NCBI GenBank assembly: GCA_963576725.1
Contig: OY755242.1
Location: forward strand, 23,828,656-23,892,655
Source: Azorinus chamasolen
Taxonomy: Eukaryota; Mollusca; Bivalvia; Cardiida; Solecurtidae
DNA length: 64,000 nucleotides
Direction of reading: 5' to 3'
The position numbers and the translations under genes were made by a program. Positions 14,300 through 64,000 of the stretch are shown one piece after another (the first letter of the stretch is position 1; every line of letters begins with the position of its first letter). The notes beneath the pieces were generated by a model. It saw nothing but the letters and a program-made list of their open reading frames with translations. It was not told the origin of the DNA and did no database searches.

Positions 14300-14620
14300 A
14301 CAGGATTGTATCTACGACGGACGTCTAACACTGTTGGCGCCAATTAAATTTCTTCGTCAGCTACATATGGCGTGTCAGGCGTTGCAATATCGTATAATAT
14401 TTATATTTATTGTGTAATTTTATATATTTAGTTTATATATCTATTGTATATATTTTATACATTCATTGTATAATATATATAATCGCAAGTGGACAGAAGA
14501 ACGTTTGACCATGGCAGAAACTGTAAAATTATATATGTATTATATGATAAGCAAACAGAGCAGATATATCTTATATAATAAATATATAAAATCATACAAT
14601 AAATATATATTTTATGCAAT

Positions 14621-15440
14621 ATACCGTCAGGTAATTGGTATTCCTATAGGTACGAATTGTGCACCACTTGTCGCAGATTTGTTTTTGTACTGCTATGAGA
14701 GAGATTTCATGTTGCGTTTGAATCCTCAATCACAAGAAGATGTTATAAAAGCCTTCAATGAAACTTGTCGATATTTGGATGATATTTTTAACTTAGATAA
14801 CCCTTTCTTTGATGCTCTGATTCCTACAATTTATCCTAATGACCTCAATGTTTTTGAATAAAGCTAACCCGTCCGACAATTATGCAGCGTTTCTTGATCT
14901 AGACCTTAAAATTGATAATGGAATGATTTCTTCTAAAATATATGACAAGGATATGATTTTGATTTTAATATTGTAAATTTTCCTCATCTTGACGGAGATG
15001 TTCCCCGTGCTCCAATTTACGGGGTTTATATATCTCAACTTATTCGTTTTGCTAGAGCTTGTTCATCTATTGACGATTTTAACAGTCGAAATCTCATTTT
15101 AACTGAAACACTGCTTAAGCAAGGATATAGATACCATAAACTAAGAAAAACTTTCTCTAAATTTTACTATCGAAATCTCTCGCTTATTGGCAAGTACCAA
15201 TGTAATCTCGTGGCGCTTCTGCGACACGGTATTTCACATCCTGAATTTTATGGTGATGTGATTTACAAACTTCGTAAAATTATTGGACATACGCATTTTC
15301 TCAATTTGTTCATCAAAAAATTCATTAAAAAGGGATATGATCCTGTAGTACTACAACATACTGCATGTTTGGTTGTGAACCCTTTTACAGTTGGCAATCA
15401 CGCTGGCCTCTTTGCCTGTACGCTGACAAGAAAGGTTTAG
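14621..15440 (+). pseudogene. Naiad reverse transcriptase fragment, frameshifted
   Basis: It contains motif B, motif C (CRYLDDIF), then a frameshift. After that come FARACSSIDDFNSRN-like and YRYHKLRKTFSKFYYR segments in shifted frames, and a C-terminal segment ending ACTLTRKV with TAG at 15438. It cannot encode an active enzyme. Confidence 0.85.
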
Positions 15441-15502
15441 TAATCTATGAAGGAGACCTCTTAAATCCAGAAATGGAAGGAGAACGTCGGATATCTGTAC
15501 TA
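15438..15502 (+). promoter_or_regulatory. Decayed SECIS-like element
   Basis: It is in the same place as 46032-46096. The quartet, AAA and apical parts are kept. One helix I base (TAGTAA) and one helix II base (GGAGACC) are changed, so pairing is weaker. Confidence 0.6.
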
Positions 15503-15998
15503 TTTCGTTTTTGTCGTACCCTTTATTACTTTTCTACAGTTACTCTGTTTGCAGCTCAATCATTGGGTACACTAGCGATAGGTGGATACAGTTTGTCCAC
15601 TTAAATGTTTTCGTTATACATGCACTTTACCACTGTATTTGCCATCGCGGTTGTTGTAGATTAGTCGGAGAGGGGATACGTGTATTTACATTGTTTGTCT
15701 TTTAGGGTGGGGATGGAATAAGTGTGCCCATAAACCGGTTTAACCCCCAGTGACTTTTGTCACTGACTGTTCCAAGGCGGTACTTCCATCTTCCCCCTAT
15801 TGTATGTTTGTTTTGTCTTTGTGCGTCTCGTGATGTTTTTATAGTTATGTACATTTGCTGTTTCCTTGTGTTGCTGTTCGGGCGACTGTTTGTTCTGTAT
15901 GTGGTGTTTCCTGCATGACTCATTTTTGTACTTTTTCGTTCTGTTTCAGACGCGCTGTGACAGTGCTAGTAACAAAATCAATTGTTTAAAATATATCA

Positions 15999-25376: not shown

Positions 25377-25445
25377 GCGAATAGAGTATATTCAGATCTG
25401 ACGGACTCCTAGAGGAGCCGTTTGATTAGGGTCTGCACTGTTTGC
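25377..25445. repeat. Short palindromic hairpin element, 3' of gene B
   Basis: It is the intact counterpart of the element that the full Naiad interrupts near 42376/46541. Confidence 0.75.
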
Positions 25446-30172: not shown

Positions 30173-30294
30173 GTCTTAGCATGCTCTGCATCCATGATAG
30201 TTGATTCGGTTCTCTTCTGATCACTGAAGTTCAGCAACGTCGAGTCCGGTTAGTACTTTGATGGGTGACCGCCTGGGAATACCGGGTGCTGCAG
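30173..30294 (+). pseudogene. 5S rRNA-derived sequence, copy 1
   Basis: The 3' two-thirds match 5S rRNA closely: AAGTTCAGCAACGTCGAG (box A region), TTAGTACTTTGATGGGTGAC and CGCCTGGGAATACCGGGTGC (box C region). The first about 35 nt are degenerate relative to the usual GTCTACGGCCATACC start. A T-run follows, like a pol III terminator. Probably a pseudogene or a retroposed 5S copy. Confidence 0.82.
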
Positions 30295-30613
30295 AATTTG
30301 TTCTTTTTTTGTGTTATTCCAAAAACTGTTCATTTCACTACTAATGAATAAAAACAATTTGCTTGTACATTTAAAACTTGTTTTCTGCTCCCGATCACTA
30401 CGAAAACATCTTAATAAGGCATATTTATCTCGATTTCAATAGCACTGTGAACAGTTTTATAGTCTTAAACCCTAAACCCTTTGCTCCATGAATATTAAGA
30501 TAAGAATAAAGTTCATCATGAGTGTCAATTAGAATAACTGTTATAATTGCAAATGGACAGAAGAACTTTTGCCATGGCAGAAACTGTAGAACCATATCTG
30601 TATTATATGATAA

Positions 30614-34873: not shown

Positions 34874-37800
34874 GTTTGTAAATTATGAAAAATGATGTAG
34901 GTATTGATAATTAATTATAGCGTATGTTTCCTAATGTAACAGTTTGTTACGTGATGTTGACTATTTACCCAAATACAAATGGTTATATAGAATTCATTAA
35001 TTCCTTAACACTTTACCTCATGAATATTCATGTAAGTTATAATAATATCATGAATATTACTTAGATTAGATTTTAAGACATAATGAACATAGGAAATTTG
35101 GCCATGGCAGAAATTATCTTCAGCGACGGACATGGGAATCTGGTAACTGCTTAATACGGGGTGGGGGATAATACACAAAAATCCAATAGGAGCTTTCTGT
35201 ATTACTTTTGACCTGCATTAAGCTACCACGTTTTGATGGTAACCTAACATATGTTCTACTTTATTATTTCAAAAGCAAATAGAGCAGGCCCCAGTACTAT
35301 CATAATACTTATTGATCGAGAATATTAAATGTATCAATTCACAGATAGGGAATTACAGATATCTTAATGGGGATTACTTGTACATTTTACAGCGAGGTCT
35401 CCGCTATCGGCCAAGAAATATTAAATGCAATTTATTTGGTTTCAAAATTCATTGTTCTATTAAAGGTCCTTTCACTGTTTTTGCGCCAACAAACGCTGCG
35501 CTCTCCAACTTAGATCCAGCGGTGAGTTCCGCCATTGCCAACAACCCTTCGCAAAAGAAGTCCATAGTGAAATACCACATTGCTGCAAACTTCCTACTGG
35601 TTCCACAAGTGCATGGCCAACAAAATGTAGGCACAATGGCTGGCCAAAACATCGAGGCATTACATATAGGATCGGTAAGTTATGATAATAATAATCCGTC
35701 CTGGTTCAGATCACCGGTTCGATGTATTTCAATTTTCTGTAAACAAAAGACAAGGTATACATTATAAGTATAATTTAAACTGCATTTACACTGACGTATA
35801 TTTTGTTTTAAGTTCCGCTAATACTTATGCATTGAAACCTATTTGACACATATTATATTTAGTCAACTTGTCCAAATTAGGTTTTCGTTGTTCATCGCAA
35901 ACAAACAATATACTGGTATAAATTACTAACATCTATGGGTTTAGCAAATAGTATTGTCCCTGATCAGACGGTTGTTTCAAGAGCCCTATGTTTTCGGTCA
36001 AGCCTATTTGCTTATTCCATTATAGGGTCAAATCCGTGTTGGTCATTTCCCAACCATGGGCGTGGGAGTAAAAGTATTAAACTACAGTACAATTTGTGTT
36101 AACATTAAACATTCTGTTGATGTATTCAACGTTTTAAATTTGATATCTGGATGGAAAACAATTAAATCGTTATAGTCGTTCACTACTTTCTGCCCCGCAA
36201 GTCTCTGTTGTTAAAGCATTACTTCATACGCGTCATAAAACCTCTTTAATGCAACAAATTAATGAATAGACATGGTTGATTTTAAACGCAGGTGATTGCT
36301 TAAAGCATGTAAAATAAGTGCGTGAAGTTCGTTCCTATGAAAGCGTTTTGCATACCTTTCGTCCGGCATTGAGCAAACACCTATCTATAAGATCTTGATT
36401 TATACATATTCTTGTGATAGCAATACAGTAGAACCTGCCGAAGAGGCCATTAATTTATTGAACACATGAATCTTAAAAGGTAGGCAGTTGCTTAATGCAG
36501 GGTAAAGGTAATGCAGAAAGCTCCTATAATTTTGACCTGCATTGACCAGTTGGTGTGTTCTGAATATATGTTACGCTACGATTTAAATAATAATGTGTTA
36601 TAACCCAAACACTAAAATGAAGTGGTATAAACCACTTTTCTTGCATCTCGCTTTAATTCTTTCCAGTTATGTTTCATTAAGGGAACCATAACAGTACCTA
36701 CAACCGCTGCAAGTAATATGGGTTTTACATGTTTCGTGTAAATAAAATACCTTCGTCGAAATCCATTGACCTTCTGACCTCCACTAGTTCTAGATAATGA
36801 AATGGACGTACTGTATTTTAATTCTGCAGTCACTGATTCTCAACAACGTCACCCATGTTGATAACGCCCCCAACAACGACATCATCTGCAACAATGGTAT
36901 CGTGCAGCCCATCGACAGACTCTTGATTCCTCCTGTGTTCGGAACTGACGACATCGCTTCAGTCCTCATCGAGAGGGACGACCTATTCCAGGAATTTTTC
37001 ATGTCAATCCTTCTTGCAAACATGACGTCGTACTTTAAAAGTAAGTGCAAGAACAGCGTCCTCCAGTTTCTCAACAGCGCTCGTTTAACCCATTGTCTCA
37101 TAGGCTATATCTAGATGCAACCACTTTTAACAAATCTACCAAAAATGAGCATTAGTTAGAGAAAAGGAAGTTTTTAGAATTTTGTAGTTTGAAACCAATT
37201 TGATAAATAGAGCATTCGCTCCTATAGGAGCAAATGCTCTATTTATCACAATGGTTTCACAAAGTGACTTTTACAGAGTCTTCAAAAGTCGTCAATATAA
37301 GGGAATTGGTTAAATATACTTAATGAATTGAGTGTTTTTGGATTGTTTCTATTTACTTGATAAATATTTATGTCAGAAATACTGAAATCATGAATATTTA
37401 TTGGTTATTTTTATAATAGTAAATTAATACAAGAAATGTCATAGCACTAACCGAATAAGCAGATGTGTATAATTTTCGTTAGATCCTGATCAGACGAGTC
37501 ATATAGGAGCTCTCTGGTCTGGGTTGATACTGTTTGCAAAGAAAGAAAGGATTGTAGAGGAGTGAACACGTCCAAACGTAGGCTGCATAAACATGCAAAA
37601 ACTTGTAACTGATCCTGGTTTACTGATATCCCTTATGTGATTGCAAAGCTTATTTTGAATTAACTTCTAGTTTGATAACATATATATAATGGATCTCTAA
37701 AACGAAACCAAAACAACGAAGCACGACTGATGAAAAAGTCGGATAGTTTCAAAACAATCGTCTCATGATTTTAAAAGTGGAATACTGTTTAAAAGTACTT

Positions 37801-40800
37801 GGTCTAGTCCGGCTTTGCGCATATTGTCATAATTTCTAAAACCAATATCAAAAACCAAATACTGCAGACCTTTTTCAAATAACCATTTCATGATTCCTCC
37901 GATCTGGCCCTAGACTGTTTGATAGTGTGTATTGTATCGTTTTGTTCATTAATTATGTTTGTGTATGACTGGGGTTAATTTAGAACGGTGAGAACATCAA
38001 TAAGTAACTACTTAACCCATTTGTGCCATACGGCACGTCTGATCAGAGTCTACATTGTTTGCTGATTAATAATATAAAACAAAACGAAATTGAATATTTA
38101 GACCAGGCATTCCTTATATCAAAAATGGACTAATCTTATATATAAACATGGAAGAACCCGCTTGGCGCAAATGGGTTAATTCATGAATATTTTTAAGACA
38201 GGCAGTTGTTTAATACAGAACGTAAGTAATGAACACCAACACGCCAACGCATGTGATGCATTTCATCCGTTATGCATTCAGCTAAAATGTGTCATATGTC
38301 TTAAGGACCAACCCTTATATATTTCATTGGGTTTCACTCTAGAGAAGACTTGCATATATTGCACTTAAACATACTAGACGAATATTATATGTATGTTCAT
38401 AATTTATTTTAGGTGGGGAATACACACTTTTTGCACCGATAGATGCTGCATATGGGCAGGCATACAAAGGCATTTTGGGATCTCACATTCCTCTTGAGAA
38501 GAGAATAGAAATTTTCAAAGGTACATTAACTGCAATCTAGTTCGTTTATAACACCCAAATAACAACTATCTTCATTCATTACAAATAACCTCGTCCATAA
38601 GCAGAATTGATATGTTCTTCTTAGCTCTTTCGGTGCCAATGTCGCCAGTTGACACCATTGAAAACAATGCAGCCCCAGGTCAGATGCCGTCTTTTCAAGG
38701 CGGCATCTGATCTGGGACTTCACTGTTTTCAATAGTGTCAAGAATACAGGTTTTTAATATACCTTTACTATTTAGTTTAGAATTACATTTAATATGAAAT
38801 TCTTATTGCAGACGACACTTTTAAATTTGGCGCCAAAATAGTTAAAACATACATCGGCGTTTGTTGTTGCAAAATTATACAAACCATTACATTCACAAAA
38901 TTCATAAGCATGCTAAAATGTTATTCTTAGATCTTAAAACGTGTAACATCTAAGTATCAATATTCGAGTCATTGTGTGTCAGTTGCGAGATTCTTGCCAT
39001 AGTTTCCGAAGCTTAGAATATAGTCAAGATAACAATAAGAATCAGGCAATAATAGGTGTATTACTTCTATAATACCTTAGATTTTATAATAACATTTCTT
39101 GCGAAAATAATAGTGTTGTATCATGCTTAATCGGAACGTAGTAAAGTCAAGCAGGCAAAGCCACATATAAGACACAGCCACCACCAAAACACCGATAGAC
39201 AGCATGGCACACACATATACCCACACACAACCACACACCCAAACGCACACTCACACACGAGATTAACACAGAAAACATCAACAGACACACAAGAACTAGA
39301 GACAAACACTCCATACATGAACAAAATCACAAGCACAAAGACGTAAGGCAAACAAAAGGAAGGGTGACAAAGAGAGTACCGCCTAAAGTCTTTAATGAAG
39401 GTAATATATGTAGAACTAATAGGACAGTATACATTCTTTCCGCACTGCAGTGAGACTTCACAACCCTTCAGAATTTATTATATACATATAATGTACTTGT
39501 ATTTGTTGTGGCATATGTGGACGTGATTTCGATGCTTGTTACATTATGAATGTTATTGCAATAATAGGTGCATTTGCGGTCGTTATTACAATCATTGATG
39601 GAGTAATGACCATTATTTTCACGTGTGCTCATTTTGCATATATAAAGCGTAAATGTTTAGATGGATAAGTACATATTGCTGTTTATCTTGTCGAGATCAT
39701 AATTGCCCATGCTTTCTATTTTAATGGTTCAAATCTTTGATCAAGGGTACACCCAGATCGTAAAACTATTTCACTATTACTAGGACTAAGTCAAAACTGT
39801 GGTAACTGCATTTCATGATCTTTGCCAAAAACATGTGGAGATTCAAGTGAGACCCCTGATAAATCAGTGCATAAACTGGTTTACAATACAATACGAGTGT
39901 TTCATGTGAAAGGAACGAAACTTTAATATTGTCTATTCTTTACAAATAGTAAATTATTTCTTTAATGAATATTCATATGACAAATAAGGAATATTAATTA
40001 GATAAGTTTTATAATGACAGGTGAATATAGGATATTTTGACCATTACATCAACTGTAAAGTAAGATCTACGAACAGATACTGGTTAGACAAATGCCACAA
40101 GAACAGTGTAATACTGGTTTACTCTATTTGAAAATGTCTTAAAATGCGGGATTACAGGTTTGAACATAAGAATGCATTAAAAAAGAATTGTTACAGTTTA
40201 TGTACTTTTAGAAACGGTTAAATACCATATGGTACCTGGTGAGCGAGCTGCTGGGGTTCTGAATGACGGAGACCAATTATACACCCTACATGGAACACCG
40301 GTCAACATTACGAGAAATGCAAACGGTATCAATAATTATCAATAAACAATACTGTCGTTACATATTAACACTATTAATTTAGTGTATATCATTGTTATAA
40401 CACAATCAATTATATCGTTATTCGTTTAGTACATATCAGTTATATTCACAATAAATACTATCATTTTTCATTTATAATAATTGCATATTACAAATTAAAT
40501 ATAGGCTTTCAATAAAGGGGATTTGCTTTTATATCAACGAAAACGATAACTGGATATCTAGGTTAGTTAATGAATAATAAAAACCAATGGTTTGTCTTTT
40601 ATTGAATGTAAAATACATATTCAGATATTTCTCGATTAGATCATACCTGGTGTCTATACAAAATGCTTGGATCCTGATGTTGCATTCACTTGTGGCGTAC
40701 AGTACAAGCGACCACACAAACTCAGGTGGTACCTTTACCTGGCACTGGAAGGGTTAATGCAGGGCGAATGTTATTTCGAAAGCTCCTCTACTTTCGGTCT

Positions 40801-41604
40801 GCATTATGCATCGACGTATATGTGTTTCAGGAGTTCAGTGATTAATTCTTAAACCATTCCATCATAGAACCAATCTTTATCAGAATATTTACTAGAGAAT
40901 GTTCTCGCTCCGATTGAGCAAATGCTCTTTCCATCTCAATAATTTTTAAAAACGTCATTTTTGGAGGCGGCGAAAGGCGTCAATGGGGGGGGATATATTA
41001 AATCAATATCGCATTAAACATGTATAGATGTTTTACCCATTCCCTCATATTGACGACTTTTGACGACTCTGTAAAAGTCAGTTTGTGAAACCATTGTTAT
41101 AAATAGAGCATTTTCTCCTATAGGAGCAAAAGCTCTATTTATCACAATGGTTTCAAACTACAAAATTTTCCTTTTCTCTAGTTAATGCTCCTTTTCGGTA
41201 GATTTATTCAGAGAAGTTGTAACTAAATATAGCCTATGAGGTAATGGATTAAGTAGACACTTTAGAGGGGTTCTAATTTAAATTATTTCGAGTGGTTGTT
41301 TCTAACAGATTTTGCCAGGAGTAACGGCATCTTTTAACTTGAATTGCAAAGGTTTTAGTATACATGTATCATATTTTTGCAGGAGTATTGTTGTCAAATA
41401 TGTTTTAACTGTATATGTTTGTATTGTATCATTTTTGTTTCAGGACTGATGGTGAACAATGCACATATAGTTGACGCTAACATCGCTGCCTCTAATGGTG
41501 TAATCCATGCCATAGATAATCTTCTGTTCCCAATGGACATGTATGCCGAGCTGGTGCAGCTTTATAACCAATATGACAAAACTACGCCGGCAACGGTTGG
41601 TTAA
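34714..41604 (+). CDS. Gene C: secreted two-domain fasciclin (FAS1) protein
   Basis: Exons are 34714-34873, 35466-35674, 36830-37040, 38413-38520, 40212-40325 and 41444-41604, with lengths and phases identical to gene B (963 nt, 320 residues). The signal peptide and all six FAS1 motifs are intact. Differences from B seen by eye include VDKGYTE for VDNGYTE in exon 1, SNLDPAV and NVGTMAGQN in exon 2, IDRLL in exon 3, AAYGQAYKG and PLEKRIEIFK in exon 4, ETVKYHM in exon 5, and VNNAHIVDAN and AIDNLLFP in exon 6. No stop or frameshift is seen, so it is probably functional. Its intron 4 carries a PLE-related insert (39131-39384) shared with D and absent from B. A possible poly(A) signal ATTAAA is at 41661. 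Confidence 0.92.
35466..35674 (+). CDS. Gene C exon 2 (FAS1-1 H1 and YH motifs)
   Basis: Acceptor TATTAAAG, donor TCG|GTAAGT, 209 nt. It encodes GPFTVFAPTNAALSNLDPAV. Confidence 0.9.
36830..37040 (+). CDS. Gene C exon 3 (FAS1-1 H2, start of FAS1-2)
   Basis: Acceptor TTCTGCAG, donor AAA|GTAAGT, 211 nt. It encodes NGIVQPIDRLLIPPVFGTDD. Confidence 0.9.
37084..37313. mobile_element. TTAA-type MITE, gene C intron 3
   Basis: Duplication partner of 19933-20160. Confidence 0.85.
38413..38520 (+). CDS. Gene C exon 4 (FAS1-2 H1 motif)
   Basis: Acceptor ATTTTAG, donor AAAG|GTACAT, 108 nt. It encodes GEYTLFAPIDAAYGQAYKG. Confidence 0.88.
38660..38730. repeat. Palindromic hairpin, gene C intron 4
   Basis: Partner of 21502-21569. 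GAAAACAATGCAG pairs with CACTGTTTTC. Confidence 0.78.
39131..39384 (-). mobile_element. Short PLE-related insert in gene C intron 4
   Basis: It shares AGTAAAGTCAAGCAGGCAAA, the CACACA-rich centre and AAAGAGAGTACCGCCT with 49569-49870. It sits after CTTAA. Gene B has the uninterrupted site near 21800. Confidence 0.65.
40212..40325 (+). CDS. Gene C exon 5 (FAS1-2 YH motif)
   Basis: Acceptor TACTTTTAG, donor ACG|GTATCA, 114 nt. It encodes ETVKYHMVPGERAAG. Confidence 0.88.
40852..41252. mobile_element. Two adjacent TTAA-type MITEs, gene C intron 5
   Basis: It matches the pair in gene B, but the second copy keeps its left end (TTTTACCCATTCCCTCATAT). Confidence 0.75.
41444..41604 (+). CDS. Gene C exon 6 (FAS1-2 H2, C-terminus)
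   Basis: Acceptor TTTGTTTCAG, stop TAA, 161 nt. It encodes NGVIHAIDNLLFPMDMYAEL and ends TTPATVG. Confidence 0.92.
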
Positions 41605-42376
41605 GTGGTCCAGCTTTAATTCATCTACAACACTATATGTAGTAAAGCAGTATACATGTAATTAAATTCTTTGTTTCTGTCATGTGTATGAGGAATCCAA
41701 TCCATTTGTATAAGGAACCTAACACCTACATAAGCGAGTATACCCAAGGCATTTCAAAGTATATGATGTTTTCATATAAAGAACAGTGATAGTCTCATGT
41801 ATCGTATCGCTTGCTGACAAAAGCAAAACTACTGTTGATTATAAATTAAACCTCAGAGGGAAAGCAAAGCAAGAAATAATGAGATTTCCTTTTAAAAAAC
41901 TACGTTTCTTGTCAAACCGATATTATACTCTCAACGCTCCCAATCGTTTCAATTCGGTGATTGATTATCGGCATTCTTTGGATAATTACGGACGAAATGC
42001 GAAGGAAAGATCTGAATGGACAAATTTATGTTTTCCGTCTGTGTTTTTTTTTTTTTGTGTTCCATATGCAGCTCTAAATTTTTAGAATATAAAAGTGACA
42101 TACCTGAGGACTTGGTGATATTTTTAGATAAAAATAACCCTCAAGCCTTTTATCATTTATGACCAAATATTGAAAATGACCGAGTGAACTAGGTTGCTGT
42201 TGTTTTACCCTTCTATTCCGTTTGATGTTAGGATATAGACATCAAATATATCAAATTTCAAATGAATATGAATATTGGTCTTTATAGCAGATGGTTACTT
42301 AATATAGGGAGACTTTCATGCAGAAAGTTCCCACGTTAACTCTTTCCCTCATATGAACGTGTTTCACGCATTTGCA
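41605..42376. other. 3' flank module Z of gene C, part before the Naiad
   Basis: It matches 23964-25376 without the MITE and the B-specific hairpin. No gene is recognised. Confidence 0.6.
41661..41666 (+). promoter_or_regulatory. Possible poly(A) signal of gene C
   Basis: ATTAAA lies 57 bp after the stop. It is identical in gene D (63955-63960) and mutated in gene B. Confidence 0.4.
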
Positions 42377-42580
42377 AAACCGGTTTAAACCCCCGGTGAC
42401 TTTTGTCACTGACCGTTCCAAGGCGGTACTTCCATCTTCCTCCTATTGTATGTTTGTTTTGTCTTTGTGCGTCTCTTGTTGTTTTTTCTACCCATGTACA
42501 TTTGCTGTTTCCTTGTGTTGCTGTTCGGGCGAGTGCTTGTTCTGTATGTGGTATTTCCTGCATGACTCATTTTTGTACTT
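42377..42580 (+). repeat. Left pseudo-LTR of the Naiad
   Basis: It begins AAACCGGTTTAAACCCCCGG and ends TTTTTGTACTT. It reads identical to 46337-46540, offset 3960 bp. Confidence 0.9.
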
Positions 42581-42842
42581 TTATTATCACAACAGTGTTG
42601 CTTGTGCCGTGTGGTGGCCGTAAAAAGTCTCCCCGTACACGTAATCGATGTTGTTATCATTCTCTTGCAGGATATGCAAGTAACATACACAACTCTCATT
42701 CGCCTCTTACATCATCATAAGTATGTCATGCACCTCGTGGTAGGTGTTGTGTTCACCAACAATTTGATGCACTTGGTAGCTACACTAATGTAATTGACGT
42801 GTTGATGAACACAATACAGGTGCCCCTCTATCACTTTCCAAT
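42581..42842 (+). other. Naiad 5' leader
   Basis: This stretch of 262 bp lies between the left pseudo-LTR and the first ATG. It includes GTGGTGGCCGTAAAAAGTC, which recurs in diverged form near 16050. A possible internal promoter cannot be recognised by eye. Confidence 0.5.
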
Positions 42843-45800
42843 ATGAATAAAGTTAAAATACCTCGAATAGAACTAAAAGCTTTAAATATGCAATCTGTGT
42901 CGTCTGTACAAGTACCCAGAAATATTTCTAATTTCTCTTCCCTTCAACCTTTTGTTCGTTTAAAACAACTTAATCTTCAGTCGGCTTCATCTTTTCACAT
43001 ACCATCTCTTTCTATTAATAAATGTTTTTTCAATGGACCAAGAGTTGTACTTTCACCTTTAAAATCTGTTATCCAAAATGTTTCTTCTATTCGTAAAAGG
43101 TCCTTATGCAGGCGACACAGAGTGTATCCAATTATCCAAAAGTGCTTTGCTAAGAGGTGCATATGTTGTAATAACATTTCTTGTAATTCCACTATAAAAT
43201 CTACAGTTAATGGTAGAACATTTAATGTCAAGATAAACTCAGACGTTGATTGTACTACTACTAACGTTATTTATGTTTTAACTTGAAACGTGCCTAGTTG
43301 CGGTATACAGTACGTAGGACAAACAGGACGTGCTTTGAAAACTCGATTTCGTGAGCATGCATATCAGTGTCGAAATCGTAAACTAAACAATTTTTTATAC
43401 CAACACTTTCGAAAATCTGGCCATTCTTTTAAAGATGTTTTAGTACAAATTGTTGAGCATATAACATATGATAAGGAGGCGACTAGTAGCTTTAAATCGA
43501 AAGCTAGATTTATATCTGAATTAAATTGGATCAAAAAATTGCAAACACCTTTTCCTTTAGGACTGAATGATAATATTTACCAGACTGGAAATATTTCAAA
43601 AGAACCAGATATAGATATTTTTTCAATTTTTTCTATTAGAAAACGCAAATCTCGATCGCATGGCATTCGCAAGAATGGTAATATTAAACGAAAATCTCGT
43701 TTGAAATTGACTCTTCTTGATCTACATACTTTACGCCTAATTTCGGGTAAACATGCCATGCTTTCTAGACTTTCCTCCTTATCTATATGTTCATTAAAAG
43801 AAATTGACGAGCAAGCCGATAAAATTATTTTTCGATCAGATCCTCTCATAGGAACGGCTAGTTTGATACAAAGCTTTACTCTACATGTTCTCAGACCGCA
43901 CATCGACAAATTATCTGAACACCAAAGATTCTTCTTGAAAATTCCTTTTATTAATAAAGGTATTGATTTTATTGACCTCCAAAGTATTTTTAGAGACAAA
44001 AATGTAATTGACACTATTCCTAAATACTTTAAAAATACAGAACCACCTATCATCTGCTACAAATATAACAAACCCATCAGAAATACAATTTTCAACTATA
44101 ATAAAATTGTGGCCGACCTTAATATTAATGATAATATTCCTGATAATTGAGATTGCGCCACCTCAAAATTTTGCTATTCTCCGGCTGGTCATGTGATTAC
44201 TGGTAATTTTGAGATAATTAAAGATAAACGTCTACGATCTCTTTTGAATAAAGGTCCCAAATATAGAATACCATCCTTGATAGATTTTAACTCTTGTCGA
44301 GTTCAGATTGCGGAGGCTTTACAAAATTTTAGTATTAAATGGTGTCGAAGAGAACATGTTGAGTCTACTGCCCTTTCTTGTTGGAAAAAACTAATTTTTG
44401 ATATAATTGATAAACGCATTTCCTTTTACAGCTCTAATAAACACCTTCTTCCACCTAAACCTAGAACTTCATTTAGACATCTTAAAAAGGGTTTACAGGA
44501 TTTCCATTCAAAATACGTTTTTGTTCCTGCTGATAAGGCATCAAATAATGTGATTATTATTTGACGATTACATTATATCGATGTCTTGAAGCAGGAAATT
44601 ACTAATACCAAGTCATACATTTCAGTTACCACTGACGAAAAGACCATCATTTCAGACCATGTCAAAAAGTGTGAACAATTTGGAACCGATATTAAAATTA
44701 CACAACATAAACTTCCTACTATGTATTGGTTACCAAAACTACATAAAAAACCATATAAAGCGCGTTTCATTGCAAATTCTAGTTCATGTACAACTACTAA
44801 ATTGTCTATACTTTTGACTTCTTGTTTAACGAAGGTAAAGGAACATGTAAAATTTTACTGTGATAAGACTTATGAAAATTCTGGAATAAATCTCTTCTGG
44901 TCTATTAAGAACTCTTCAGAAGTCTTAAACAAACTTAAGAACAAAAGGTATCTTGCATCCACTGTAAGCACTTACGATTTTTCTACTCTGTACACAACTC
45001 TTCCTCATATTTTAATTAAGGATAAGCTTACTAACTTGATCCAGAAAGTATTTGCCCGGGAAAAAACATCGTTCTTGGCATGTAATGCTGAAAAAGCTTT
45101 CTTTACTGACGAGCAAATGAAATATTACACCAATTGGACTTGCTCAGAAGTTTGCGAAGCACTAACCTTTCTTTTGGATAACATATTTGTACGTTATGGG
45201 AATGCTATATACCGTCAGGTAATTGGTATTCCCATGGGTACGAATTGTGCACCACTTGTCGCAGATTTGTTTTTGTACTGCTATGAGAGAGATTTCATGT
45301 TGAGTTTGAATCCTCAATCACAAGAAGATGTTATAAAAGCCTTCAATGATACTTGTCGATATTTGGATGATATTTTTAACTTAGATAACCCTTTCTTTAA
45401 TGCTCTGATTCCTACAATTTATCCTAAAGAACTCAAATTGAATAAAGCTAACCCGTCCGACAATTATGCAGCGTTTCTTGACCTAGACCTTAAAATTAAT
45501 AATGGAATGATTTCTTCTAAAATATATGACAAAAGAGATGATTTTGATTTTAATATTGTAAATTTTCCTCATCTTGACGGGGATGTTCCCCGTGCTCCAT
45601 CTTACGGGGTTTATATATCTCAACTTATTCGTTTTGCTAGAGCTTGTTCATCTATTGACGATTTTAACAGTCGAAATCTCATTTTAACTGAAAAACTGCT
45701 TAAACAAGGATATAGATACCATAAACTAAGAAAAACTTTCTCTAAATTTTACTATCGAAATCTCTCGCTTATTGGCAAGTACAAATGTAATCTCAAGGTA

Positions 45801-46034
45801 CTTTTGCGACACGGTATTTCACATCCTGAATTTTATGGTGATGTGATTTACAAACTTCGTAGAATTATTGGACATACCCATTTTCTCACTTTGTTCATCA
45901 AATATATAAAACAATTCATTAAAAAGGGATATGATCCTGTATTATTACAACATACTGCATGTTTGGTTGTGAACCCTTTTACAGTTGGCAATCACGCTGG
46001 CCTCTTTGCATGTACGCCGACAAGAAAGGTTTAG
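42843..46034 (+). CDS. Naiad polyprotein: GIY-YIG nuclease, CxC linker and reverse transcriptase, with three in-frame UGA codons
   Basis: One frame of 1,064 codons ends in TAG. It is interrupted only by TGA at 43284, 44148 and 44562 (codons 148, 436 and 574). The frame stays open on both sides of each, with family motifs continuing across. Nuclease: residues about 130-215, CGIQYVGQTGRALKTRF, FREH, then HFRKSGHSF, with UGA148 where the first Cys of the CCHH set is expected. Linker: UGA436-D-C, then GHVITGN and LLNKGPKYR, so the characteristic CxC reads UxC. RT: DKASNN followed by UGA574, YWLPKLHKKPYKARF, motif A YDFSTLYTTLP, motif B GIPMGTNCAPLVADL, and motif C CRYLDDIF with the catalytic aspartates. 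With the SECIS-like hairpin at 46032-46096 I infer that UGA encodes selenocysteine. The enzyme would copy element RNA and nick target DNA in the nucleus. Confidence 0.9.
43284..43286 (+). other. In-frame UGA 1 (predicted Sec148, nuclease CCHH position)
   Basis: It is preceded by NVIYVLT and followed by NVPSCGIQYVGQT. In Penelope-like nucleases a cysteine precedes the C...YVGxT signature at this place. Confidence 0.8.
44148..44150 (+). other. In-frame UGA 2 (predicted Sec436, CxC linker motif)
   Basis: The context is IPDN-UGA-DCATSKFCYSPAGHVITG. The defining CxC motif of Naiad elements becomes UxC. Confidence 0.82.
44562..44564 (+). other. In-frame UGA 3 (predicted Sec574, RT fingers)
   Basis: The context is DKASNNVIII-UGA-RLHYIDVLKQEI, early in the RT fingers. 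The frame continues directly into the RT core. Confidence 0.78.
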
Positions 46035-46096
46035 TACTCTATGAAGGCGACCTCTTAAATCCAGAAATGGAAGGAGAACGTCGGATATCTGTACTA
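46032..46096 (+). promoter_or_regulatory. SECIS-like element beginning at the stop codon
   Basis: The hand-folded structure matches a form-2 eukaryotic SECIS. Helix I is TAGTAC (46032-46037) with GTACTA (46091-46096). The internal loop is TCT(A)/ATCT. The quartet is TGAA (46042-46045) with GGAT (46083-46086), fitting UGAN/KGAW. Helix II of 11 positions is 46046-46056 with 46072-46082, with two central mismatches. Unpaired AAA is at 46057-46059. A mini-stem TCC/GGA with a 6-nt loop caps it. Its 5' strand includes the UAG stop itself. SECIS elements recruit SBP2 and EFSec to decode UGA as selenocysteine. Confidence 0.82.
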
Positions 46097-46336
46097 TTTC
46101 ATTTTTGTCGTACCCTTTATTACTTTTCTACAGTTACTCTGTTTGCAGCTCAATCATTGAGTACACTAGCGATAGGTGGATACAGTATGTTCAATTAAAT
46201 GTTTTTTGTTATACATGCACTTTACCACTGTATTTGCTGTCGCGGTTGTTGTAGATTAGTCGGAGAGGGGATACGTTTATTTACACTGTTTGTCTTTTAG
46301 GATGGGGATGGAATAAGGGTGAGGTTGGGCGCCCAT
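46097..46336 (+). other. Naiad 3' untranslated region
   Basis: It lies between the SECIS-like hairpin and the right pseudo-LTR. It includes ATAGGTGGATACAGTATG and GTCGGAGAGGGGATACGT. It is shared with both truncated copies. Confidence 0.6.
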
Positions 46337-46540
46337 AAACCGGTTTAAACCCCCGGTGACTTTTGTCACTGACCGTTCCAAGGCGGTACTTCCATCTTCC
46401 TCCTATTGTATGTTTGTTTTGTCTTTGTGCGTCTCTTGTTGTTTTTTCTACCCATGTACATTTGCTGTTTCCTTGTGTTGCTGTTCGGGCGAGTGCTTGT
46501 TCTGTATGTGGTATTTCCTGCATGACTCATTTTTGTACTT
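46337..46540 (+). repeat. Right pseudo-LTR of the Naiad
   Basis: It reads identical to 42377-42580 over its full length and ends TTTTTGTACTT, directly abutting the host hairpin repeat. Confidence 0.9.
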
Positions 46541-46544
46541 ATAG

Positions 46545-46600
46545 TAGACCAAGATCAGACGGCTCCTAGGAGCCGTCTGATCAGGGTCTGCACTGTTTGC
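46545..46600. repeat. Short palindromic hairpin element, cut by the Naiad
   Basis: AGATCAGACGGCTCC/GGAGCCGTCTGATC arms remain. The outer left arm is missing at the Naiad border. Confidence 0.75.
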
Positions 46601-48780
46601 TTATAAAATTTGATAGATCTGTTTCTTTACTTTCTAAAATGTCTACAATGTTCCACCTTCCATATTTCTTTAAACAAAATTTGTTAATGAATATTCAGTA
46701 GGAATTGAAATTTGGAATAAACACAGAACAGGGAAAGGGTTAGGCAGCCATTAGTCTGAAGAGGTTTGCAGTCTTCTAAAATACGGTTTAGATGGGTTTT
46801 TACTTTACATGTATCTTTTGAAATGATGATTGTTGGTTCAATTAGACCGTATCGAATATCGCTATCGAACATTGGCATTATGGTTTTGGATGTTGCAATA
46901 TTGAGGCTAATGTTTTTATATTATAGTAAAACCTAACTAATCCGAACACTCTTCAGATAAGTAACATTGTTGGCAATGAGGACAGGTGACAGGTGAATAC
47001 AGCTTGGACGTCATACAGAAGGTTCCTCTGGGACTTTCACCCTGTATTGAGCAGCTGTATACCTAAAATGTTTTACATTCTTCCTAACACAAGTAAGGTT
47101 TAGCGAGGTTTTAATGTACATTTAAATGAGAATATCGTCAGAGAGATTGCAACAACAGAGAATAACCCAGAGATTGATACTTTTGAAAAAGTTCCAAGCG
47201 ATTGTCTGGGTAGCAATGCTTTGAAATCATCGTTACCACACGAATATACTTTGTAATAAACTATGATGAACTAATTTGTTATAACGGCATATGATAACAG
47301 GAATTACTAGCTATGGCAGAAGTTAGACTCATAAGCAAACAGAGCAGACCTAGATCGGACAGCTCCTACAGGCGCACATTGATGTTACAAAGATTCTTTC
47401 AGAGGAGAGTTAACAGTTTGACCGTAAATGTGTGAACTCTTGAAATCTGCTCATATCAGTTGGGATGCAGGGTTACTGGACACGTCATCAGCATATAAAG
47501 AGTTTGAAAGTCAAACAGTGAAATATGCTTCGAGACATCCAGCTCTATTGTTTCAGACAAGTGTACTTTCGTGTGCAAAAGGCTTTCCTACTGGTTGGAC
47601 AGTTCAAACTGACAAGATCCATCTCATATTTCACACCTTTGCAGTACATCGACATTAGAGGGTCCTATGAGAAGCTGTCTCATCAGGGTCTGCGCTGTTT
47701 GCTTTTTAGCCCTGGTCAAATGTTCCTATAAATTAACGGATTACGAAGAGTCCTCACTCTGTGTATCCCAGACAATCTGTTTTCTGAATATAGTCTTATG
47801 AGACATTGTCTGTTTTAATGACACAGAACCCCAGATTTAAGTGTTGGACAATATGGTATAGAAGTAACACAATAAGGCATTCTTTAAATATATCATCTTA
47901 TATCTAAGAATACATGTAATATACCAAATAGTAAGCATCGAATTACTTCAACAATACGAATGTTACAAACACATCTGTTAAAGCTTTTCTAAACAAACGA
48001 TGTCTGGAGAGACAATAGCATTGCACTCTATATAATATCTACTGTTACGACTATAGTATTGCTCAACATATCTACATTGCCATGAGCTATTCAACACAAA
48101 GGGATAAATTGGCTCAAACCAGCATTCAGAGAATAATTACGGCATTATCCTTAGCTTGCTGTTATATTACATGTTTCACTTATATCCTACAGCCATTCTA
48201 TTCTTTCGTTACAGAAGATACACACTCAATCTTTAATTAGTTTTATATTTATGAATAGTAACCTAACTAACATAAGCAACCATACTAGATATACCATTCA
48301 ACCGTTATGTACTTCCAAAAAGGCATCCAGCTGACATATTTAGCCTGTTGGTTTTTTCTTTTTCCTGTCTTCTTGTGTCTCTTTGTAATTGATATTTTTC
48401 TCCTTCATGTTCTTCTATGAACCACATATCTCATTAATTTCTATCTTCTTACAGAGGTCCATATAAAATGCGTAATCGCAAATATTTTCAACAATAGCTC
48501 CTTTATTTCTCCACCAAACCCTATAATGTGACTACTCTTTAGAATCGCCCCGAAGGCGATATTCTAAAGTGGTAACAGTATAGGATTTAGTAGAAATATG
48601 ACGACTTAGGTAATTGGGTACGCACTTTTTGCTGCAGCTCTGATCTTATTACATTCATGCGGCGTCTCATCAGGATTTAAACTTTCAGAAACTCGGTCGA
48701 AGTGTCCCAAAAACTTAATCAAATCGGAAGTAGTCAAACTTGCACCAAATCAAAATTGGAGCGTATACATTATTTGTTTC
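46601..48780. other. 3' flank module Z of gene C, part after the Naiad
   Basis: It matches 25446-27570. It contains a MITE-like stretch at 46922-47060 and decayed hairpins. No gene is seen. Confidence 0.6.
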
Positions 48781-49268
48781 ACATAATGCATTTCTAAACA
48801 ATTCAGCTGATCAATGATAATAGTCACTATTGAACCTTTCATCGCCGAATAGTAAAAATCCTTTTCAAGCGATTATGTTAAAAAGATAAATTGCTCGAAA
48901 GGATCTACTGCTTTAGAGCAATTAATCCTTTAGAACATTCATGTTTAAGATTATACAATTAAAAGCTTTTTAAACAACTGAAGAATACGTCGAAATTTAC
49001 TATGCAGATACAGTAGCACCCTTCTAAAAGGTTAAAATAAAAAATAAATACAATTTACACATATTTCCAGAACAAATTGTATCCAATATACGTCGAAATG
49101 CACTGTTTCGTCCGGCATGTTTCAACGAAGAATGAGACTTGCGACAAACCTTGTTTATTTCAATTTACCTGAGCCGCTTCAACCAATAAGTATGATTTGC
49201 TTTGCAACTTTGCAATAATTAGGCGGGAAAATTGACGGCGATAGTATAGCATTGTGCTAAATAGCTCA

Positions 49269-49359
49269 GAGCATGTTTATTTCATACTACAGAATATAGT
49301 CCTCTCGGCGCGTCCCGCGCCTTGAGTACTATATTCCGTAGTATGAAATAAAAATGCTC
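49269..49359. repeat. Hairpin GAGCAT...ATGCTC, copy 3 module
   Basis: Partner of 28053-28143. Confidence 0.75.
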
Positions 49360-49560
49360 CAACCTATACGTACTTCTAAATCTGTGTTTAATTCCTTTTG
49401 AAACTTGCATTTATTTATCTCATTTCATTATTGTAATTAATTATTTAACGGACGACAATTAGAAATTTGGCGCCGAAAGGGTTAAACTTTTTTCCATACA
49501 TGAATGTTCACGAGGTAAAAGTTTGCGGTACATCAGTGCCCCTTCATGTCCCTACATTAA

Positions 49561-49636
49561 TGGAAAAGGTAGTAAAGTCAAGCAGGCAAAGCCACATACA
49601 ATACGCAACCACCACCAAAACACCGATAGACAGCAT

Positions 49637-49719
<83 letters not shown>

Positions 49720-50000
49720 CCACACATCCAAACGCACACACACACACGAAATGAACACAGAAAACACCAAAAGACACACAATAACCAGAGACAAACGTTC
49801 CACACATGAACAAAATCACAAGCACAAAGACGCAAGGCAAACAAAAGGAAGGGTGACAAAGAGAGTACCGCCTTGGCACGGTCAGTAGCAAAAACACCAC
49901 TGGGGGTTTAAACCGGTTTATGGACGTCCTATCCTCACACTTCTCTCAAAGTCACCCTAGCTTTACAAATATTGTAAATAAAGATATCCCCGCTGGACTC
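49561..50000 (-). mobile_element. PLE-related 3' end with an AC microsatellite
   Basis: Read on the minus strand it contains CCATAAACCGGTTTAAACCC and CCAAGGCGGTACT, as in the Naiad pseudo-LTR, but the rest is diverged. The equivalent sites at 12832 and 28350 lack it, running directly from ACATTAA to AACCACACC. An (AC)n run of about 82 bp lies inside. Probably the end of a second, related family. Confidence 0.6.
49638..49719. repeat. (AC)n microsatellite
   Basis: An uninterrupted AC dinucleotide run of about 82 bp, within the PLE-related insert. Confidence 0.95.
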
Positions 50001-50107: not shown

Positions 50108-50323
50108 TTAACCCATTCCCTCATATGCTATATTGAGGCATAACCTCTTTGAAAAAATCTACCGAAAAGGGGCATATGCTAGAGAAAAGGAAAAAGGAAA
50201 AGGAACAGTTGTGTAGATTTTTAACCATTGTGATATGGAGCAGATGCTCTATTTATCACAATGGTTTCAAAAGGTGACTTTTACAGAGACGTCAAAAGGC
50301 CTCAATATGAGGTAATGGGTTAA
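50108..50323. mobile_element. TTAA-type MITE, module copy 3
   Basis: Duplication partner of 12950-13159. Confidence 0.8.
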
Positions 50324-50436
50324 AAAGTCGTCAATATGGGGGAATGGGTTAAAAGGCGTCAATATATGGGAATGGGTAAAAAGGCTTCAATATGAAGGAA
50401 TGGGTTAAAAGGCGTCAATATAAGGAAATGGGTTAA
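50290..50436. repeat. About 32-bp tandem array grown from a MITE end, copy 3
   Basis: About five units at the place equivalent to 13120-13440. Confidence 0.8.
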
Positions 50437-51875: not shown

Positions 51876-51997
51876 GTCTTAGCATGCTCTGCATCAACGA
51901 TAGCTGATTCGGTTCTCTTCTGATCACTGAAGTTCAGCAACGTCGAGTCCGGTTTGTATTTTGATGGGTGACCGCCTGGGAATACCGGGTGCTGCAG
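51876..51997 (+). pseudogene. 5S rRNA-derived sequence, copy 2
   Basis: It is the duplication partner of 30173-30294 with a few substitutions (GGTTTGTATT for GGTTAGTACT). A run of T follows it. It is not an independent insertion. Confidence 0.8.
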
Positions 51998-52320
51998 AAT
52001 ATTTTTTTTTTGTGTGTGTGTTATTCCAAAAACTGTTCATTTCACTACTAATGAATAAAAACAAGTTGCTTATACATTTAAAACTTGTTTTCTGCTGCCG
52101 ATCACTACGAAAATATCTTAATAAGGCATATTTATCTCGTTTTCAATAGCACTGTGAACAGTTTTATAGTCTTAAACCCTAAACCCTTTGCTCCATGAAT
52201 ATTACGATAAGAATTAAGTTCATCATGAGTGTCAATTAGAATAACTGTTATAATTGCAAATGGACAGAAGAACTTTGGCCATGGCAGAAACTGTAGAACG
52301 ATATCTGTATTATATGATAA

Positions 52321-52990: not shown

Positions 52991-53456
52991 TTATGATATA
53001 ATATGGATAAAAGTACAAAAATGAGTTATGCAGGAAACACCACATACAGAACAAATACTCGCCCGAACAGCAACACAAGGAAACAGCAAATGTACATAAC
53101 TAGAAAAAACAAAAAGAGACACACAAAGACAAAACAAACATACAATAGGAGGAAGATGGAAGTACCGCCTTGGAACGGTCAGTGACAAAAGTCACTGGGG
53201 GGGTTAAACCGGTTTAAGGGCGCCCAACCTCACTCTTATTCCATCCCCACCCTAAAAGACAAACAGTGTAAATAAACGTATCCCCTCTCCGACTAATCTA
53301 CAACAACCGCGACGGCAAATACAATGGTAAAGTGCATGTATAACGAAAAAACATTTAATTGAACATACTGTATCCACCTATCGCTAGTGTACTCAATGAT
53401 TGAGCTGCAAACAGAGTAACTGTAGAAAAGTAATAAAGGTTACGACAAAAATGAAA

Positions 53457-53521
53457 TAGTACAGATATCCGACGTTCTCCTTCCATTTCTGGATTTAAGA
53501 GGTCGCCTTCATAGTGTACTA
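53457..53521 (-). promoter_or_regulatory. SECIS-like element in truncated Naiad copy
   Basis: It has the same 65-nt fold as 46032-46096: the TAGTAC/GTACTA helix, the TGAA/GGAT quartet, AAA and the TCC/GGA cap. It differs only in the internal loop (ACT for TCT). Confidence 0.72.
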
Positions 53522-53523
53522 AA

Positions 53524-54109
53524 CCTTTCTTGTCGGCGTACATGCAAAGAGGCCAGCGTGATTGCCAACTGTAAAAGGGTTCACAACCAAACATGCAGTA
53601 TGTTGTAGTACTACAGGATCATATCCCTTTTTAATGAATTGTTTAACACATTTGATGATCAAAGTGAGAAAATGGGTATGTCCAATAATTTTACGAAGTT
53701 TGTAAATCACATCACCATAAAATTCAGGATGTGAAATACCGTGTCGCAGAAGCACCTTGAGATAACATTGGTACTTGCCAATAAGCGATAATAAAATTTA
53801 GAGAAAGTTTTTCTTAGTTTATGGTATCTATATCCTTGCTTAAGCAGCTTTTCAGTTAAAATGAGATTTCGACTGTTAAAATCGTCAATAGATGAACAAG
53901 CTCTAGCAAAACGAATAAGTTGAGATATAGAAACCCCGTAAGATGGAGCACGGGGAACATCCTCGTCAAGATGAGGAAAATGTACAATATTAAAATCAAA
54001 ATCATCTCTTTTGTCATATATTTTAGAAGAAATCATTCTATTATTAATTTTAAGGTCTAGATCAAGAAACGCTGCATAATTGTCGGACGGGTTAGCTTTA
54101 TTCAATTTG
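53524..54109 (-). pseudogene. Naiad reverse transcriptase C-terminal fragment
   Basis: It encodes LDLDLKINNRMISSKIYD, FARACSSIDDFNSRN and YRYHKLRKTFSKFYYR, then a frameshift, then the C-terminal segment ending ACTPTRKV. Motifs A to C are missing, so it is inactive. Confidence 0.85.
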
Positions 54110-54277
54110 AGTAAGGTTTCTGTCATGGCCAAAACTTTATATGTCCATATGCTATTAGAACCATTAATCTAAAGAATACTAATAATGTCTGTATTTCTAA
54201 CGTAAATATTCAAGGAGTAAAGCGTTAAATAAAAATATGTACGTGTGTTAGACATATTACCATGAATATTAATAAGA

Positions 54278-57364: not shown

Positions 57365-60300
57365 GTTTGTAAATTATGAAAAATGATGTAGGTATTGATA
57401 ATTAATTATAGCGTATGTTTCCTAATGTAACAGTTTGTTACGTGATGTTGACTATTTACCCAAATACAAATGGTTATATAGAATTCATTAATTCCTTAAC
57501 ACTTTACCTCATGAATATTCATGTAAGTTATAATAATATCATGAATATTACTTAGATTAGATTTTAAGACATAATGAACATAGGAAATTTGGCCATGGCA
57601 GAAATTATCTTCAGCGACGGACATGGGAATCTGGTAACTGCTTAATACGGGGTGGGGGATAATGCACAAAAATCCAATAGGAGCTTTCTGTATTACTTTT
57701 GACCTGCATTAAGCTACCACGTTTTGATGGTAACCTAACATATGTTCTACTTTATTATTTCAAAAGCAAATAGAGCAGGCCCCAGTACTATCATAATACT
57801 TATTGATCGACAATATTAAATGTATCAATTCACAGATAGGGAATTACAGATATCTTAATGGTGGTTACTTGTACATTTTACAGCGAGGTCTCCGCTATCG
57901 GCCAAGAAATATTAAATGGCATTTATTTGGTTTCAAAACTCATTGTTCTATTAAAGGTCCTTTCACTGTATTTGCGCCAACAAACGCTGCGCTCTCCAAC
58001 TTAGATCCAGCGGTGAGTTCCGCCATTGCCAACAACCCTTCGCAAAAGAAGTCCATAGTGAAATACCACATTGCTGCAAACTTCCTACTGGTTCCACAAG
58101 TGCATGGCCAACAAAATGTAGGCACAATGGCTGGCCAAAACATCGAGGCATTACATATAGGATCGGTAAGTTATGATAATAATAATCCGTCCTGGTTCAG
58201 ATCACCGGTTCGATTATGACCCGAGTAAACGCAAATGATACACAAATGTATTTCAATTTTCTGTAAACAAAAGACAAGGTATACATCATAAGTATAATTT
58301 GAACTGCATTTACACTGACGTATATTTTGGTTTAAGTTCCACCTATGTTACTTATGCATTGAAACCTATTTGTCACATATTATATTTAGTCAACTTGTCC
58401 AAATTAGGTTTTTGTTGTTCATCGCAAGCAAACAATATACTGGTATAAATTACTAACATTTATGGGTTTAACAAATAGTCTTGTCCCTGATCGGACGGTT
58501 TTTTCAAGAGCCCCATGATTGCGGTCAAGCCTATTTGCTTCTTCCAATATAGGGTCAAAACCGTGTTGGTCATTTCCAAACCATTGACGTGGGAGTAAAA
58601 GTATTAAACTACAATACAATTTGAGTTAACATTAGACTTTCTGTTGATGTATTCAATGTTTTGAATTTGATATTTAGATGGCAACCACCTATCTATAAGA
58701 CCTTGATTTATGCCTATTCTGGTGATAGCATTACAGTACAGCCTGCCGAAGCGGTCATTCATTTATTGAACACATGAATCTTAAAAAGTAGGCGGTTGCT
58801 TAATTCAGAGTATAGGTAATGCAGAAAGCTCCTATAATTTTGACCTGCATTAAGAGAGTTGGTGTGTTTTGAATTAATGTTACCTACGATTAGAATAATA
58901 AGGTGTTATAAGCCCAACACTAAAATGAAGTGGTATAAACCACTCTTTCTAGCACGTCTCTTTAATTCTTTCCAGTTATGTTTCATTAAGGGAACAATAA
59001 CAGTACCTACAATCGCCGCAAGTAATATGGCTTTTACATGTTTCGTGTAAATAAAATACCTTCGTCGAAATCCATTGACCTTCTGACTTCCACTAGTTCT
59101 GGATAATGAAATGGACGTACTGTATTTTAATTCTGCAGTCACTGATTCTCAACAACGTCACCCATGTTGATAACGCCCCAAACAACGACATCATCTGCAA
59201 CAATGGTATCGTGCAGCCCATCGACAAACTCCTGATTCCTCCTGTGTTCGGAACTGACGACATCGCTTCAGTCCTCATCGAGAGGGACGACCTGTTCCAG
59301 GAATTTTTCATGTCAATCCTTCTTACAAATATGACGTCGTACTTTAAAAGTAAGTGCAAGAACAGCGTCCTCCAATTTCTCAACAGCGCTTGTTTAACCC
59401 ATTGTCTCATAGGCTTTATCTAGATGCAACCATTTTTAATAAATCTACCAAAAAGGAGCATTAGTTAAAGAAAAGAATGTTTTTAGAATTTTGTAGTTTG
59501 AAACCATTGTGATAAATAGAGTATGTGCTTCTATAGGATCTATTTATCACAATGGTTTCACAAAGTGACTTTTACAGAGTCGTCAAAAGTCGTCAATATG
59601 AGGGAATTGGTTAAATATACTTAATGAATTGAGTTTTTTGGATTGTTTCTATTTACTTGATAAATATTTATGTCAGAATATTTATTGGCTATTTTTATAA
59701 TAGTAAATGAATACAGGAAATGTCGTAGCCTTAACTGAATAAGCAGATGTGTATAATTTTCGTTAGATCCTGATCAGACGAGCCATATAGGAACTGTCTG
59801 GTCTGGGTTGATACTGTTTGCAAAGAAAGAAATGATTGTAGAGGAGTGAACACGTCCAAACGTAGGCTGCATAAACATGCAACAACTTGTAACTGATTTT
59901 GGTTTACTGATATGCCTTATGTGATTGCAAAGCTTATTTCGAATTAACCTCTAGTGTGATAACAGATATATAATGGATCTCTAAAACCAAACCAAAACAA
60001 CGAAGCACGACTGATGAAAAAGTCGGATAGTTTCAAAACAATCGTCTCATGATTTTAAAAGTGGAATACTGTTTAAAAGTACTTGGTCTAGTCCGGCTTT
60101 GCGCATATTGTCATAATTTCTAAAAACAATATCAAAAACCAAATACTGCAGACCTTTTTCAAATACCCATTTCATGATTCCTCCGATCTTGCTCTAGACT
60201 GTTTGATGTTGTGTATTGTATCGTTTCGTTCATTACTTATGTTTGTGTATGACTGGGGTTAATTTATTACGGAAAGAACATCAATAAGTAACTACTTAAC

Positions 60301-63898: not shown

Positions 63899-64000
63899 GT
63901 GGTCCAGCTTTAATTCATCTACAACACTATATGTAGTAAAGCAGTATACATGTAATTAAATTCTTTGTTTCTGTCATGTGTATGAGGAATCCAATCCATT

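Follow-up and report, generated by a model that had tools for sequence, protein, structure and literature searches.

The window analysed here, a stretch of 64,000 nucleotides of Azorinus chamasolen DNA, contains a retrotransposon-like reading frame that is interrupted by three UGA codons, and the question raised by this locus is whether these codons mark the decay of a dying element or are read as selenocysteine (Sec). We put the probability at roughly 95% that a young Penelope-like retrotransposon of the Naiad type lies here and that its one ORF specifies a selenoprotein containing three selenocysteines, the insertion of which we infer from the sequence comparisons described below. The frame and its codons of interest are located as follows.

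42843..46034, plus strand: polyprotein ORF of 1,063 codons followed by a terminal TAG, with GIY-YIG-type nuclease, CxC linker and reverse transcriptase (RT) regions
43284..43286, plus strand: UGA codon 148, opposite an invariant Cys of the aligned relatives, the first of the nuclease CCHH set
44148..44150, plus strand: UGA codon 436, where the CxC linker motif has its first Cys
44562..44564, plus strand: UGA codon 574, in the early part of the RT region, at a conserved Cys
46032..46034, plus strand: terminal TAG, whose three bases are also the first three of the basal helix of the SECIS element

The earlier note had claimed that this frame has no TAA or TAG before its terminal TAG and is broken only by three TGA codons, and the coordinates, the length, the stop and the TGA positions were all confirmed (TAA/TAG, 0; TGA, 3). 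From the base composition, a frame of such length would be expected to hold approximately 58 TAA/TAG and 18 TGA codons, the chance of zero TAA/TAG being about 2e-26, and the five remaining frames over 42843-46034 held 33 to 133 stops apiece. The claim that UGA codons occupy the first Cys of the CCHH set and of the CxC motif also agreed with the motifs: a C-x4-C set has its first Cys at site 148 (U148-x4-C153), with the conserved H172, H188 and H194 downstream, and site 436 opens the CxC motif (U436-D-C438) if Sec is counted as Cys. Site 574 corresponds to the conserved Cys within ADKASNNVIII-C-RLHY, upstream of the RYLDD motif at residues 839-843. The bases immediately 3' of the three UGA codons are AAC, GAT and CGA, respectively.

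The element that carries this frame was delimited by self-BLAST and by comparison with repeated segments of the window, in which the following features were located.

42377..46540, plus strand: whole copy of the Penelope-like (Naiad-type) element, from pseudo-LTR to pseudo-LTR, with flanks that align to an empty paralogous site
42377..42580, plus strand: 5' pseudo-LTR, identical to 46337-46540
46337..46540, plus strand: 3' pseudo-LTR, with 204 bp identical between the two pseudo-LTRs
25381..25394, unstranded: paralogous empty site, which matches both element flanks and marks the insertion
14614..15933, plus strand: 5'-truncated relative with 93.7% DNA identity, a decayed frame and nearly the same SECIS
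53008..54112, minus strand: 5'-truncated relative with 95.5% DNA identity, frameshifted

The pseudo-LTR match in the self-BLAST extended over 210 bp with two mismatches, both in the last six bases, and no clear target-site duplication was seen when the flanks of the element were compared with the empty site. The unit length was 3,960 bp, and tandem copies were found at 3,961-bp spacing on contig C19. The window protein gave no match to Pfam or to PDB sequences; among four relatives scanned, the N-terminal GIY-YIG domain scored over the cut-off in all four, and a C-terminal RVT_1 match, below its cut-off, was obtained in two. The window protein aligned through with these GIY-YIG/RVT_1 relatives, the nuclease thus preceding the RT within a single ORF, and a search for a hammerhead ribozyme in 42000-50000 gave no match up to an E value of 10. 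A nuclease preceding the RT, a CxC linker, pseudo-LTRs and the lack of a hammerhead are features of Naiad elements. The best reading is thus that the element is a Naiad-type Penelope-like retrotransposon, a name that rests on these features. The description of the element as young was borne out by the 204 identical bp of the pseudo-LTRs and by the 99-100% protein identity of the 43 best copies in the genome, and it is plausible that the element is still active.

We then compared the three UGA sites with the corresponding residues of relatives. When X replaced the residue at each of the three sites as a control for bias and 62 sequences were realigned, the relatives having a letter at the respective column carried Cys in 37 of 37 (site 148), 55 of 60 (site 436) and 56 of 61 cases (site 574); the other letters were three W, one L and one F at site 436 and five W at site 574. 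The W residues probably represent TGA codons read with genetic code 4. BLASTP with C at the sites of the query, for which 120 of 333 relatives were listed, gave Cys in 39/40, 90/99 and 107/115 at sites 148, 436 and 574, and the same search with X gave 21/41 (18 of the 41 gapped), 75/98 and 106/115, the lower counts arising because neighbouring indels displace the gaps. Only 13 of the 1,063 positions carried Cys in at least 90% of the relatives, and all three TGA codons fall among them; the probability that three of three TGA codons would hit such positions by chance is therefore approximately 1e-6 (computed with 12 positions). The ten other highly conserved Cys residues (101, 106, 109, 137, 153, 438, 649, 673, 802 and 1057) use ordinary Cys codons. 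The Cys-type Naiad-like proteins P0017, P0023 and P0041 share the domain order and the conserved Cys residues of the window protein, but their ORFs, like those of others of this type, are unbroken and have Cys at 148, 436 and 574. The alignment with Cys-containing homologs proposed in the earlier note thus placed Cys opposite all three UGA codons in nearly all relatives with a residue there, contrary to the homologs devoid of Cys that it had named as the outcome that would speak against its reading.

To what extent the stops are retained in other copies was assessed across 1.72 Gb of the genome in 137 contigs. All 43 close copies scored, out of 49,305 first-look candidates, held the three TGA codons and no other stop. 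Second and third queries, whose copy sets overlap with each other and with the first, gave 58/58 scored copies that have, within the matched part, two TGA and a single TAG, and 48/48 copies with two TGA, of which 46 had one TAG, one had TAG and TAA, and one had neither. Comparison of 38 loci base by base, including that of the window, revealed TGA at 436 and at 574 in all 38 and at 148 in 27 (the other 11 being uncovered by the match), and the TAG corresponds to the stop that closes the frame, being present there in 38/38. A further query, the RT part of a relative, gave 88 scored copies, of which 87 had no stop over the matched part and one had a TAG; an open frame of exactly 489 (= 1063 - 574) codons was counted by eye in 82 of the 88. 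Other fetched copies were approximately 94-98% identical over the matched pieces. Retention of TGA among such close copies proves little alone, because the copies are so young that they are nearly identical.

Diverged copies were more informative, and in their alignments rows of more than 93% identity, that is, the young copies, were left out. At locus L027 (C14:61752111-61757411), an older Naiad-like element of another family is split by a young copy inserted in it. The pieces of this older element were 67-76% identical to the window protein, and they carried TGA at 148 (L049:813), 436 (L027:566) and 574 (L027:960). TGA was also found at 436 and 574 in L018 and at 574 in L053, and in total six of the seven rows covering a site had TGA. 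The seventh row showed TGT on site 574 in L027 (position 4859), at the junction of the split copy and in poor context; the proper codon there is the TGA at 960. Other parts of these old copies contained two TAA codons and one TAG. Unrelated stops at these places in other copies, which would have spoken against the selenoprotein, were accordingly not what the copies showed (TGA in 6/7 diverged rows and 43/43 scored close copies).

Immediately at the end of the ORF lies a hairpin, which the earlier note had missed and which follows the eukaryotic SECIS plan of an AUGA core, an AAA apical loop, a second helix and GGAU.

46032..46096, plus strand: SECIS element, with AUGA core 46041-46044, AAA apical loop 46057-46059 and GGAU core 46083-46086

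An Rfam scan of the 64-kb window at cut-off gave no SECIS above threshold, the hairpin scoring 26 bits (E 0.12) against SECIS_1, whose gathering score is 35. The homologous hairpin of L050 (L050:1051-1113), which belongs to the older family, scored 36.8 bits, over the 35-bit cut-off; that of L045 scored 20.8 bits (E 0.083), below it, and one older fragment, L038, had no SECIS match. The fold z values of the three hairpins were -2.33 (window), -2.73 and -2.59, with 8, 1 and 5 of 200 shuffles folding as low. In its minimum-energy fold, however, L050 has some of the AUGA core paired, which departs from the SECIS plan. In a covariation alignment of only four sequences (two from the window, L045 and L050), onto which the structure of the window sequence was imposed, 93.4% of the cells pair, and none of 500 shuffles reached the score or the number of cells paired. 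Six pairs were changed on both sides, a number reached by 11 of the 500 shuffles; for the pair types, 166 of the 500 reached as many. Among the 38 loci, the SECIS was identical in 34 and had one change in four. These comparisons suggest that the SECIS is conserved in the older family with compensatory changes.

The host appears to possess the machinery for Sec insertion. The best tRNA-Sec match in the genome scored 80.7 bits and was called by ARAGORN as tRNA-Sec with anticodon TCA, and the next matches of the search (47 bits or less), as far as checked, were tRNA-Ser. Weak matches of this kind mean nothing, since the same search also matched in 14 of 14 control genomes, in five of them over the cut-off. 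For SepSecS, seven exon-like pieces were found in order on contig C11 within approximately 17 kb, two of them containing stops that are perhaps intron sequence; the SepSecS search matched in 3 of the 14 control genomes, including Bacillus subtilis. The selenoprotein proposal of the earlier note thus gains support from the coincidence of UGA with Cys, the TGA codons of diverged copies, the covarying SECIS, and the tRNA-Sec and SepSecS of the host.

In the proposed mechanism, the SECIS at the ORF end would recruit the host tRNA-Sec, and UGA 148, 436 and 574 would be decoded as Sec, replacing highly conserved Cys residues at three places, namely the nuclease CCHH set, the CxC linker and the RT. 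Ribosomes that fail to recode would stop to leave N-terminal fragments of 147, 435 or 573 residues, and only full recoding would yield nuclease and RT in one protein, which could then nick DNA and reverse-transcribe its own RNA. Transposition might, if so, depend on selenium.

Three other explanations were weighed against this mechanism. Retroelement copies do decay, and truncated copies with broken frames are present in the same window, so that three stops acquired by chance in a dying element might be suspected; but such decay would have to spare 1,063 codons from any TAA or TAG, to leave the 43 scored copies with the three TGA only, to strike identical positions in a family whose proteins are 67-76% identical, and to select three near-invariant Cys columns; the ORFs of relatives, too, end exactly at the sites. 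We regard ordinary decay as extremely improbable. An equally remote prospect is that UGA denotes Cys throughout the host, through a changed nuclear code or RNA editing. The finding of UGA at Cys positions only in the ORF frame would accord with it, whereas the frame contains only three UGA codons, the ten other highly conserved Cys residues are specified by ordinary codons, and a tRNA-Sec with anticodon TCA is present.

Programmed read-through of the stops with insertion of a standard amino acid (e.g. Cys, Trp or Arg), giving graded truncated products without any Sec, is slightly less improbable but still very unlikely. Three in-frame stops would indeed give a graded set of products, and W occurs at the sites in the ORFs of some relatives, although gene calling with code 4 best explains it. 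On the other hand, relatives carry Cys at these positions, the 3' end holds a covarying SECIS, both tRNA-Sec and SepSecS are present in the host, and the AAC, GAT and CGA that follow the UGA codons are unlike CUA, the context motif of stop-codon read-through. Decoding of the three UGA codons as Sec is hence the reading that we retain.

Such selenoprotein elements have precedents. Craig, Yushenova, Rodriguez and Arkhipova (2021; Mol Biol Evol 38:5005) reportedly described the Naiad clade, including selenoprotein Naiads of clams and spiders. In the literature searched, no paper joined Naiad and Penelope-like with selenocysteine, or Penelope-like elements with selenoprotein; the work of Craig et al. 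(2021) is cited in the reference list of PMC11167929, and Naiad and Penelope-like occur together in PMC10941475. That the window element is a fresh example of the kind already described in clams and spiders is well supported. It resembles the selenoprotein Naiads in having the nuclease before the RT, a CxC linker, pseudo-LTRs, tandem copies, no hammerhead match and several UGA codons at Cys positions, and it possibly differs in a SECIS that starts on the stop codon and in a Sec/Cys mosaic. Selenoprotein P is a host protein with multiple Sec residues, and the element is likewise similar to such multi-Sec host selenoproteins in combining several UGA codons per ORF with a 3' SECIS; it differs in that Sec here would replace likely metal-binding or structural Cys residues of a nuclease-RT.

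The mosaic became apparent from a quick tree of 64 sequences including that of the window, for which those numbered up to P0070 were taken from 113 suitable ones. The window protein and every row with W at 574 shared one group of 21, consisting of 8 Sec or presumed Sec and 13 Cys sequences, and the 43 other rows were all Cys. At least four Sec/Cys changes were counted on the tree, three of them forced by well-supported branches; Cys rows are over-represented in it because gene callers lose the UGA forms. A query with the middle segment (43290-44147) retrieved 651 related predicted proteins, in which the kind of stop is invisible. Among the 120 listed, the end falls exactly at residue 435 in 69, exactly at 573 in 37 and elsewhere in 14, counts that were unchanged when the query sites were X, and all 37 ending at 573 have Cys at 436. 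Site 148 had no aligned residue in 119 of these 120 and Cys in one (P0281). In a further set of relatives of the RT part, 78 of 97 did not reach site 574, the others having 16 C, 2 W and 1 R, and of those 78, 25 begin at residue 576 and 12 at 582, the start of the window's own mechanical ORF. Judging from such predicted proteins, some families apparently have Sec at 148 and 436, either alone or together with 574, and others combine Sec at 148 and 574 with a Cys at site 436.

The end of the ORF also showed an unusual arrangement. The ORF frame across the hairpin reads TAG-TAC-TCT-ATG-AAG-GCG-ACC-TCT-TAA in the window and TAG-TAC-TCT-ATG-ATG-GTA-TAC-TCT-TAA in L045, and the C termini of P0003-type relatives are SDSMMVPT, SDSMMAPT or similar; at the protein level, the strict C-terminal pattern was found in 49 of 217 homologs and a looser one in 50 of 217. 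In the sister clade, the ORF thus seems to run through the 5' arm of the SECIS and to stop at the UAA of the apical loop. We tentatively entertain, as a rather doubtful joint reading, that the SECIS is integrated into the 3' end of the coding sequence, so that terminating ribosomes might disturb the read-through hairpin as a built-in brake, and that, within the wider family, each conserved Cys site changes independently from Cys to Sec or back. Possible novelties are the overlap of the SECIS with the ORF end and the mosaic of Sec and Cys, which extends over more than 100 predicted relatives.

A mobile element would here appear to depend on the rare selenium pathway of its host for its own replication protein, and its Sec residues would occupy positions with an expected role in metal binding or structure, unlike a classical redox site. 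The many natural Sec/Cys variants of one protein provide good material for studying why Sec is used and how several UGA codons are read, and annotators should be aware that gene callers cut such ORFs into pieces at the UGA codons.

Several relatives from other sources were also encountered. Viral contigs were considered as a source of relatives and rejected, 15 matched stretches including none. A scan of genome contigs gave two loci, L047 with 30% identity and Cys at all three sites, and L048 with a 31-residue match; L047 (NYSS01000008.1) is a Naiad-like element on a contig filed as a Planctomycetota MAG, perhaps through animal contamination, and some relatives are filed under MAGs of lucinid-clam symbionts. 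Two Naiad-like proteins, P0017 and P0019, have a ubiquitin carboxyl-terminal hydrolase domain (Pfam UCH) at the C terminus, at residues 1024-1299 with 107.9 bits in the former and as a precomputed match in the latter.

The window itself is rich in repeats. The segments 22928-28342 and 40501-49559, and also 62803-64000, are repeated at approximately 91-96% identity, one of them without the Naiad and containing the empty site. Matches to 5S rRNA at 30184-30297 (57 bits) and 51887-52000 (45.4 bits) lie in similar AT-rich repeats, perhaps a duplicated unit. The ORFs 35312-35767 and 57803-58219 are very similar to each other and duplicated in the window, and their TVFAPTNAAL motif presumably belongs to a fasciclin-type domain. 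A 28-bp tandem unit, AAAAGGCGTCAATATGAGGGAATGGGTT, is common to 13130-13439, 28647-28788 and 50294-50436, and a tandem array of 36-bp units with a 218-bp higher-order period occupies 2997-3766.
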